From Mycolicibacterium rufum (lineage in GTDB: Bacteria; Actinomycetota; Actinomycetes; Mycobacteriales; Mycobacteriaceae): 64,000 bases of DNA. The position numbers and the translations under genes are program-made. The stretch lies in contig NZ_CP092427.2 of assembly GCF_022374875.2 (NCBI RefSeq), forward strand, positions 5,642,001 to 5,706,000, given 5' to 3'. Positions within the stretch are counted from its first letter, which is position 1; the number at the start of each line of letters is the position of its first letter. Below, one piece after another: positions 28,308-31,405 of the stretch. The notes beneath the pieces are model-generated. The model was not told where the DNA came from, searched no databases, and worked only from the letters and a program-made list of their open reading frames with translations.

Positions 28308-29543
28308 ATGCCCACCGGTCACGTCCGACTGACGTCGCACAGCGGTGGCACCGACGCGCCGGCGCTGCACTGGGGCGCTCCGACGCCCGCCGCGCGCGGA
28401 CCCGTCGTCGGCACCACCGCGCGGGCGCACCGCAACGTGATCGGCGCCCACAGCGGCGCGTACGGCGTCTACCGCGCGCTGGCGGTCGCGGCGGGCAAGC
28501 TGTCCCCCGACCACCGCGCCGACCTCACCGACACCGCGCCGACCGACCGGATCGGACCGCACCCCCAGTGGGGCGACCCCGCGACGATCGTCAGCCTGGA
28601 TCCGTGGGGAGCGATGGTGACCGAGGCGTTCGCCGCCGAGATCGCCGCCGGCATGGACATCCGCCCCACCATCGCGGTCACCAAGGCGCAGGTGATCCTG
28701 CCCGAGGTCGGCGATGCGCTCGGCCGAGGCCGGTTGGTCCCGGACGGGCGCGTGCTGCTCGCCACCGGCGCCGCGCAGGTCACCAAGGCCGCCGTCGAGC
28801 CCGTCTGGCACCTGCCGGGGGTGGCCGCCCGCTTCGGCTGCAGCGAAAACGACTTGCGCCGTGTGCTTTTCGAGGAGACCGGCGGCATGTATCCCGAGCT
28901 GGTGACCCGCCCTGACCTGGAGGTCTTCCTCCCGCCGATCGGCGGGCAGACCGTCTACATCTTCGGCGACCCGGCGCACCTGGCCGATCCCTCGGTCGAA
29001 CTGACCGCCCGGGTGCACGACGAGTGCAACGGCTCCGACGTGTTCGGCTCCGACATCTGCACGTGCCGGCCCTATCTCACCCACGCGATCGAGGAGTGCA
29101 TCCTGGGCGCCCAGCGCGGCGGCGTCGGCCTGGTGGCGTACTCCCGCAAGGAAGGCCGCGCGCTCGGTGAGGTGACGAAGTTCCTGGTCTACAACGCCCG
29201 TAAGCGGCAGATCGGCGGCGACACCGCCGACCAGTACTTCGCCCGCACGGAATGCGTTGCCGGAGTGCAGGACATGCGCTTCCAGGAGCTGATGCCCGAC
29301 GTGCTGCACTGGCTGGGCATCACGAAGATCCACCGGCTGGTGTCGATGAGCAACATGAAGTACGACGCGATCACCGGCGCCGGTATCGAGGTCGGTGAGC
29401 GGGTGTCGATCCCCGACGAGTTGATCCCGGCCGACGCCCGCGTGGAGATGGACGCGAAGATGGCCGCCGGGTACTACACCCCCGGTGAGGTGCCCGACGC
29501 CGAGGACCTCAAACGCGTGAAAGGCAGGGGGCTGCACGGATGA
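28308..29543 (+). CDS. GTP cyclohydrolase II-like protein, URC1 type
   Basis: A 411-residue protein with the RibA catalytic core in its second half. The zinc cysteines are C240, C251 and C253 in VHDECNGSDVFGSDICTCRP, with the C-x10-C-x-C spacing of GTP cyclohydrolase II. The substrate loop VAYSRKEGRALGEVTKF replaces the usual RQEGRGIGL, so riboflavin synthesis is unlikely. The first 200 residues have no RibB domain. Longer RibA relatives beside DUF1688 and a uracil phosphoribosyltransferase are the URC1 proteins of the URC uracil-catabolism pathway described in yeast. The stop overlaps the next start (ATGA). Confidence 0.85.
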   Translation: MPTGHVRLTSHSGGTDAPALHWGAPTPAARGPVVGTTARAHRNVIGAHSGAYGVYRALAVAAGKLSPDHRADLTDTAPTDRIGPHPQWGDPATIVSLDPWGAMVTEAFAAEIAAGMDIRPTIAVTKAQVILPEVGDALGRGRLVPDGRVLLATGAAQVTKAAVEPVWHLPGVAARFGCSENDLRRVLFEETGGMYPELVTRPDLEVFLPPIGGQTVYIFGDPAHLADPSVELTARVHDECNGSDVFGSDICTCRPYLTHAIEECILGAQRGGVGLVAYSRKEGRALGEVTKFLVYNARKRQIGGDTADQYFARTECVAGVQDMRFQELMPDVLHWLGITKIHRLVSMSNMKYDAITGAGIEVGERVSIPDELIPADARVEMDAKMAAGYYTPGEVPDAEDLKRVKGRGLHG

Positions 29544-30763
29544 CCGTGCCCGCCGAGGCGGCCCACGCCGTCGAGGTGCTGCGCACCACGACCGCGGTGC
29601 GGACCCGCTCGGCGGTGCTGCTCGACCGAGCCCGCGCCGGTGAATCCCGCTGGTTCACGGTGGACGATGACGCGCTGCCCCGCGCCGCCGACGACGTCGC
29701 CACGCTCACCCGCACCCGGTTCCCGGACCTCGACATCCCGCTGCACAGCCGGTGGCGCCACTTCGAGGCCGGCGGCGTCGACCGGCGCGCCGCCCTCGAC
29801 GCCCTGCTGGGCGACGTCGACACCCCCGAGCGCGCCCGCGCGATGATCGACCTGACCGTGGTGAGCGTGCTGCTCGACGCCGGCGCAGGCCCGGACTGGG
29901 GCTACGTCGAGAACGGTGTCCGGTACACCCGCTCGGAGGGTCTCGCGGTCGCCAGCTGGCACGCCTTCACCGCCGGGGCGTTCTCCGGGAACGCCGACCG
30001 GCCCCTGCAGGTGGACGCGGCAGGGCTGTGTGCGCTGACGGTCGAGGGTCTGGCCGCGGCGCTGCAGGTGGGCCCGGCCAATCCGCTGGTCGGCCTCGAC
30101 GGGCGGGTGCACCTGCTGCGCCGGCTCGGTGACGCGCTGGCCGACCAGCCCGAGGTGTTCGGCGCCGCCGGCCGGCCGGGCGGCCTGTTCGACTCGTCGG
30201 CCGCGCCGTCGGGCGCCGTCGACGCGCATGACCTGCTCGTGACGCTGCTGACCTCGATGTCGCGAATCTGGCCGTCCGTCAACATGATCGGCGATGTGCC
30301 GCTGGGCGACTGCTGGCGCCACGACGCCGTCGGCGGGCCGGGCCTGACCGCGGGCTGGCTGCCGTTCCACAAGCTGTCGCAGTGGCTCACCTACTCGCTG
30401 ATCGAGCCGCTGGGCTGGGCCGGCGTCACGGTCACCGGTGTGGAGGCGCTCACCGGGCTGCCCGAGTACCGCAACGGCGGTCTGCTGCTCGACACCGGGG
30501 TGCTGCGGCTGCGCGACCCCGGCGCCGCCGAGCGCGCCTGGACCCCGGCCGACGAACCCGTGGTCGAATGGCGTGGGCTGACGGTGGCCCTGCTCGACAA
30601 ACTGGCGCCGCTGGTGCGTGCCCGGCTCGGCACCGACGCGGCGCGCCTGCCGCTGGCGTGCGTGCTCGAAGGCGGCACCTGGGCGGCGGGCCGGGCGGTA
30701 GCCCAACGATTGCGCGACGGGCAGCCGCCGCTGTCGATCCTCAGTGACGGGACGGTGTTCTAG
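29540..30763 (+). CDS. DUF1688 (URC4/Urg3) family protein
   Basis: A 407-residue protein of the URC4 family, required for uracil catabolism in yeast by an undefined reaction. Conserved blocks are LLDAGAGPDWGYVENGVRYTRSEGLAVASW (about residue 112), LQVDAAGLCALTVEGLA, PLGDCWRHDAV, PFHKLSQWLTYSLIEPL and the C-terminal pair CVLEGGTWAAGR and PPLSILSDGTVF. It starts by ATGA overlap with the URC1-type gene, and the upp gene begins on the next base after its stop. This spacing means tight stoichiometric coupling of all three products. Confidence 0.9.
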   Translation: MTVPAEAAHAVEVLRTTTAVRTRSAVLLDRARAGESRWFTVDDDALPRAADDVATLTRTRFPDLDIPLHSRWRHFEAGGVDRRAALDALLGDVDTPERARAMIDLTVVSVLLDAGAGPDWGYVENGVRYTRSEGLAVASWHAFTAGAFSGNADRPLQVDAAGLCALTVEGLAAALQVGPANPLVGLDGRVHLLRRLGDALADQPEVFGAAGRPGGLFDSSAAPSGAVDAHDLLVTLLTSMSRIWPSVNMIGDVPLGDCWRHDAVGGPGLTAGWLPFHKLSQWLTYSLIEPLGWAGVTVTGVEALTGLPEYRNGGLLLDTGVLRLRDPGAAERAWTPADEPVVEWRGLTVALLDKLAPLVRARLGTDAARLPLACVLEGGTWAAGRAVAQRLRDGQPPLSILSDGTVF

Positions 30764-31405
30764 ATGGTTTCGACGGTCTCCGGAGTGCACCTGGTCGACC
30801 ATCCGCTGGTGCAGCACAAGATCACCCTGATGCGCCGAAAGGACGCCTCCACCAATACCTTCCGCCGGCTGGTACACGAGGTGTCGGCGCTGATGGCCTA
30901 CGAGGTGCTGCGCGACATCGGCATGCACGAGGTCGCGGTGGACACCCCGATGGAATCCACCATCGGCAACGTGATCGACGGCAAGAAACTGGTGTTCGTC
31001 TCGGTGCTGCGCGCGGGCACCGGGATCCTCGACGGCATGCTCGACGTCGTCCCGTCTGCCCGCGTCGGTCACATCGGGCTCTACCGGGAACCCAAAACGC
31101 TTGTCACCGTGGAGTACTACTTCAAGATGCCCGGTGATCTGGCCGAGCGTGATGTGGTGGTGCTCGACCCGCTGCTGGCCACCGGCAATTCCGCGGTCGC
31201 TGCTGTCGACCGGGTGCGCGAGTGCCACCCGAAGTCGGTGAAGTTCGTCTGCCTGGTGACCTGCCCCGAGGGCATCGCCGCGATGACGCAGGCGCACCCC
31301 GACGTACCGATCTACACCGCGGCCGTCGACCGCGAGCTCGATGCCAACGGCTACATCCTGCCCGGCCTGGGCGACGTCGGCGATCGGATCTTCGGCACGA
31401 AATAA
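30764..31405 (+). CDS. upp: Uracil phosphoribosyltransferase
   Basis: A 213-residue type I phosphoribosyltransferase making UMP from uracil and PRPP. The PRPP loop is [13 protein letters not shown] (residues 132-144), the flexible loop holds [18 protein letters not shown], and the uracil-binding C-terminus is [24 protein letters not shown]. The ATG directly follows the DUF1688 stop. In the URC pathway the phosphoribosyltransferase (URC6) supplies a nucleotide form of uracil for breakdown, so this copy is probably specialised and the genome may hold a second salvage upp elsewhere. Confidence 0.95.

Follow-up and report, generated by a model that had tools for sequence, protein, structure and literature searches.

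The URC pathway of uracil catabolism is known from yeast genetics in Lachancea kluyveri, where URC4 is placed at the conversion of ribosylurea to urea and where, in passages of a 2020 report, early steps are called uncharacterized (PMC7530994). The genes urg1, urg2 and urg3 of Schizosaccharomyces pombe are clustered and induced by uracil, according to excerpts of PMC2174524, and passages of PMC3869809 show that the conservation of clustered URC genes in bacteria has already been published. Moreover, a 2021 paper on a 'UTP cyclohydrolase' is cited for the pathway in part of PMC12507026. URC1, URC4 and URC6 of L. kluyveri and the three urg genes represent the same three protein families that stand side by side in the window analysed here, a stretch of 64,000 nucleotides (C1:5642001-5706000) within the 6.1-Mb genome of Mycolicibacterium rufum. 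This locus is a URC uracil-catabolism operon, an operon type that is already known. We consider it quite probable that within it URC4 acts as a hydrolase of ribosylurea (or its phosphate) of the type of Qng1, the queuosine-5'-phosphate hydrolase (DUF2419 or Q_salvage, PF10343), with URC1 opening the uracil ring and urease acting downstream.

All three genes lie on the plus strand. URC1 (28308..29543, 411 amino acids) is a homologue of GTP cyclohydrolase II with an N-terminal GTP_CH_N domain, predicted to open the ring of a uridine nucleotide, and its Pfam matches above the cut-off are GTP_CH_N (257.7 bits) and GTP_cyclohydro2 (58.2 bits). It is joined by an ATGA overlap (29540-29543) to URC4 (29540..30763, 407 amino acids), which matches DUF1688 with 480.4 bits (cut-off 25) and is predicted to free urea from ribosylurea or its phosphate as an N-ribosyl hydrolase akin to Qng1. 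The TAG of URC4 directly abuts the ATG of the next gene (30761-30766, zero bases between), which is URC6, the uracil phosphoribosyltransferase (UPRT; 30764..31405, 213 amino acids), the predicted entry from uracil to UMP, with matches above the cut-off to Pfam UPRTase (237.8 bits) and NCBIfam TIGR01091 (255.9 bits, cut-off 208.35). The nearest named relatives found for the URC4 protein are those of Mycolicibacterium psychrotolerans (88%) and M. chubuense (87%), and the host is accordingly regarded as a mycobacterium of the environment. In NCBI such relatives go by 'URC4/urg3 family protein' or by 'DUF1688 family protein'; in Pfam the label is still 'protein of unknown function'. The original prediction of a bacterial URC-type operon, a trio joined by an ATGA overlap and a zero-base junction, is thus borne out by the open reading frames (ORFs), the junctions, the family matches, the gene order, the common strand and the tight coupling.

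The evidence for the kinship of URC4 with Qng1 comes from fold and profile. The predicted URC4 model shares the Qng1 fold over about 310 residues at 17-20% identity, and the profiles of URC4 and Q_salvage align collinearly. Helix-hairpin-helix (HhH) DNA glycosylases (AGOG, endonuclease III, OGG1) score much lower Z values than Qng1 against the same model; in addition, URC4 belongs to a small-molecule operon. One Q_salvage subfamily, L121/L124, is joined to the remaining Q_salvage sequences at 99.1%. Pfam domains of both DUF1688 and Q_salvage were found on 8 of the 120 listed relatives of L124 (P0169, P0171, P0179, P0205, P0214, P0219, P0220 and P0240). When these eight proteins were rescanned against DUF1688 they gave 23.9-28.1 bits, five of them at or above 25, and the matches fall in profile positions 268-386, which should cover the region of K278, E309 and E343. 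This subfamily is possibly a bridge family between Q_salvage and DUF1688; of the nine listed relatives for which an organism is given, five bear the name Acidimicrobiia or Acidimicrobiales.

Several points weigh against this kinship. The fold rests on a model, and the five models made had a mean predicted local distance difference test score (pLDDT) ranging from 61.5 to 88.5. Searching the PDB with the URC4 sequence or with its profile returned no Qng1, the profile giving chance matches only, and a Pfam scan of the URC4 of the window up to an E-value of 10 found DUF1688 alone and no Q_salvage. The profile signal leans on the one subfamily L121/L124, which alone gives 79.6%; with these sequences removed, a probability of 5.8% (A3) or 54.4% (A5, with more diverse URC4) remains. 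Against twelve single Q_salvage sequences URC4 gave 87.8, 27.6, 20.8 and 9.9%, the other eight being at or below 1.6%. Pfam scores near 16-17 bits are at the level of noise, 17.2 bits being reached by P0240 against CofD as well, and the 16 bits (cut-off 25) of the distant URC4 protein P0241 against the Q_salvage model fall at that level. The profile controls were 52 clusters of mechanically called ORFs. An uncounted part of these are antisense frames, which makes the clusters weaker controls than 52 real families would be. The comparison of the URC4 and URC1 profiles (100%) was void as a control, two of the URC1 rows being URC1-URC4 fusions.

The putative active site of URC4 can be read from the same alignments. 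The titles of Qng1 entries in the PDB name the mutants K199C and D231N, studied with queuosine and queuosine 5'-phosphate. By alignment counting, K199 lies in FYKRAQ and D231 in FADYKVP, and in the profile alignment their columns hold K278 (PFHKLSQW, codon 30371..30373) and E309 (LPEYRNGG, codon 30464..30466) of URC4, with a spacing of 32 residues in Qng1 and 31 in URC4. For the Sphaerobacter Qng1, D298 and W302 are named as active-site residues in passages of PMC11592518. In one alignment their columns hold E377 and W381 (EGGTW, codon 30680..30682), the distances from D231 and E309 being 67 and 68 residues, respectively; W381 is possibly the counterpart of W302, its mapping being less certain than that of K278 and E309. 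K278, E309 and W381 are invariant in 109/109 rows (104 distinct) and in all 28 diverse rows. Here too some observations tell against the assignment. The mapping comes from profile alignments, URC4 has Glu (E309) where Qng1 has Asp, the pairing of E377/W381 with D298/W302 is shifted in another alignment, and E377 is replaced by Gln in 7 of the 28 diverse rows and in 1 of the 109. URC4 also carries a conserved GD-W-H stretch at residues 256-261, peculiar to it; the corresponding positions in Q_salvage are gaps or not conserved, and the stretch is a candidate for setting the substrate specificity of URC4.

The analysis shows the gene content, order and domain families of the operon, the modelled fold of URC4 and the conserved residues. 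We infer that URC4 itself is the glycosidic hydrolase, and likewise how its substrate is phosphorylated, what steps URC1 carries out and that this bacterium uses the operon. UPRT converts uracil to UMP. URC1, perhaps after conversion of UMP to UTP, would then open the uracil ring by metal-dependent hydrolysis and remove a three-carbon piece, so that N-ribosylurea phosphate is left together with an aldehyde acid of three carbons; this ring opening with loss of the C3 piece follows paper titles and family knowledge. URC4 would cut the N-glycosidic bond of ribosylurea (phosphate) to yield urea and ribose phosphate, using a Qng1-type site in which K278 and E309 take the places of K199 and D231, perhaps together with W381. 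Finally, urease encoded outside the operon would turn urea into ammonia. Since the primary substrate of Qng1 is queuosine-5'-monophosphate, as stated in part of PMC11592518, it is suggested that URC4 also takes a 5'-phosphate, although hydrolysis of queuosine-5'-monophosphate itself is not expected of it. URC1 is reported to act on UTP, which makes it ambiguous how many phosphates the substrate of URC4 carries.

A shared fold does not settle the reaction, and URC4 might have another job in the pathway: it might, for instance, be a transglycosylase, cleave by phosphorolysis or hydrolyse a ring-opened intermediate preceding ribosylurea. The Glu in place of Asp and the GD-W-H stretch with no conserved counterpart in Q_salvage would fit such a job. 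It seems nevertheless unlikely, as K278 and E309 are invariant and PMC7530994, in passages, places URC4 at the step from ribosylurea to urea, which is an N-ribosyl cleavage. We regard it as likely that the Qng1 superfamily has a second catalytic branch in DUF1688/URC4, which would cleave ribosylurea or its 5'-phosphate as an N-ribosyl hydrolase with Glu for Asp and would share a common ancestor with the queuosine salvage enzymes. Among the papers listed, none joined URC4, DUF1688 or urg3 with DUF2419, Qng1 or queuosine, in a search which left most subscription literature outside and so leaves novelty unproven; the structural and sequence link between DUF1688 and Qng1 is new as far as the literature searched goes. 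A DUF1688 mutation in Mucor, judged from part of PMC4897934, was set aside as unrelated.

URC1 is closest to the structures 7EJ3 and 7EEV, which it matches with 764 bits from residue 4 to residue 411. Both entries bear the title 'GTP cyclohydrolase II', and we take them to be the UTP cyclohydrolase described in 2021. URC1 differs from them by scattered substitutions only and no functional difference is visible. With these solved relatives and a reported UTP cyclohydrolase, the chemistry, which the original prediction had called only partly solved, is less open than claimed. Could URC1 instead be a RibA paralogue of the riboflavin pathway, in a cluster for flavin or pyrimidine salvage and not for uracil breakdown? 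The 58-bit match to GTP_cyclohydro2 and the intact cysteines would allow it. URC1 reaches 780.7 bits (cut-off 403) in the NCBIfam family NF005536, which itself carries the name 'GTP cyclohydrolase II', whereas six RibA-type NCBIfam models gave 37.5-59.3 bits with cut-offs of 148 to 764, none of which was reached (for example NF001591, 59.3 of 148, and TIGR00505, 48.4 of 205.85), and the RibA-type chains of the PDB gave 39.5 bits at most. A separate GTP_cyclohydro2 domain of 249 bits at C1:463163 is a strong GTP cyclohydrolase II outside the operon. Both these results and the solved relatives, presumably tied to the URC route, make a riboflavin role very improbable. The operon reading draws on this separate cyclohydrolase and on the fusion of URC1 and URC4 into one natural in-frame ORF in two relatives (L018 and L022; in L023, of the same genus, they are split).

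The cysteines C240, C251 and C253 of URC1 (codons within 29025..29066), which by homology to GTP cyclohydrolase II are presumed zinc ligands, are intact as predicted, being kept, like Y295, D322 and R324, in 108/108 alignment rows. The substrate loop may be altered as noted at first: the stretch between Y295 and D322-x-R324 differs from that of E. coli RibA and has insertions, while Y295 and D322-x-R324 themselves align with E. coli RibA residues, presumably its catalytic ones. A single-sequence structure model of URC1 was discarded as too poor (pLDDT 34.8).

The arrangement of the trio was compared over 107 loci, namely the window, 22 from a draw of the family, four annotated plasmid regions and 80 others; five loci share an identical URC4 with another locus, probably because the genome in question is represented twice. 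No locus lacks URC1, and 104/107 (103/106 without the window) show URC1, URC4 and UPRT in that order on a single strand. In the three loci lacking UPRT (L043, L055 and L077) the contig ends 0, 156 and 53 bases past the URC4 match, respectively, and one locus (L098) has an additional UPRT gene upstream. This arrangement is far from chance.

Counting the genome of the window, DUF1688 occurs in 23/151 genomes in a draw from the family and in 6/396 in a draw from the phylum. Such a patchy spread in the family is what might be expected if the intact operon mainly cleared toxic or damaged uridine derivatives and did not supply nitrogen; moreover no gene named uracil permease lies within 10 kb on the Gordonia plasmid, the sole annotated actinobacterial region examined. 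This reading appears improbable next to the other evidence. A strong urease match is present in 23/23 URC4-positive and in 85/128 URC4-negative genomes of the family draw (Fisher p 2.8e-4, kinship ignored; matches with E under 1e-40 counted by hand, three weaker ones left out), a nucleoside-type transporter adjoins the trio in a quarter of the 84 loci described below, and the pathway is induced by uracil in fission yeast, according to excerpts of PMC2174524.

The genome of the window encodes a urea-degrading enzyme, with urease alpha at C1:17108, and a further UPRT, which shares 39% identity with that of the operon. Unlike the yeast URC system, this one is a bacterial operon with coupled junctions, accompanied by urease and by no urea-amidolyase-like fusion (yeast URC3,5) that could be found; the search for the fusion gave just a 229-amino-acid CT_C_D (PF02682) frame and did not extend to urea carboxylase and allophanate hydrolase. 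The best matches to RutA (132.3 bits, cut-off 498.3) and D-hydantoinase (180.2 bits, cut-off 393.25) stay below the curated cut-offs, and the Rut and reductive routes are not supported by the sequence of this genome. This is consistent with the expectation that the operon is an alternative to those two routes, RutA and D-hydantoinase being the enzymes of theirs that were searched.

Neighbouring genes were compared in 84 loci (L024-L107), labelled by name as 42 actinobacterial and 42 proteobacterial, with Pfam assignments for one representative of each cluster; only nine clusters, all proteobacterial, were annotated. A TenA/thiaminase II gene (27512-28258) ends 49 bases before URC1 on the same strand, and an isocitrate lyase gene (ICL2, 31466-33754) follows the operon. 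Both were rejected as operon members because each directly adjoins the trio, upstream and downstream respectively, in just 7/84 loci; they look like local neighbours, and TenA is probably unrelated. Together they flank the trio in six mycobacteria. The contig of L043 ends before the ICL2 position, an actinomycete metagenome-assembled genome (L030) has ICL2 only, and the other loci carry the trio without either gene at those positions. In five mycobacterial loci (L046, L056, L060, L075 and L097) the trio lies in one region with TenA, TPX, NlpC and FadD but in another arrangement, which suggests local reshuffling.

In proteobacteria a Bmp/PnrA-type ABC binding protein gene was found in 21 of the 84 loci, with two permeases (each in 20-21) and an ATPase (in 20). 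An amidohydrolase (Amidohydro_3) lies downstream of proteobacterial URC operons in 29/84 loci (for example L079:12001-13287) and could be a nucleobase deaminase supplying uracil. One of these loci, on an Azospirillum plasmid, is annotated with the same arrangement. Neighbour clusters of HerA helicase, GARS, coproporphyrinogen oxidase and YebC looked like local gene order and were set aside.

The Qng1-like build of URC4 offers a clue to the last step, in which urea is set free. Its place beside Qng1 suggests what class of enzyme it is, which residues form its active site and how it could be assayed simply, and opens the URC4 step to a direct test. It would also connect queuosine salvage with the breakdown of pyrimidines, the two being branches of small-molecule N-glycosidases that are kin of the DNA glycosylases. 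With a URC4 of the Qng1 branch, if true, the core chemistry of the URC pathway would be complete for bacteria and fungi alike.
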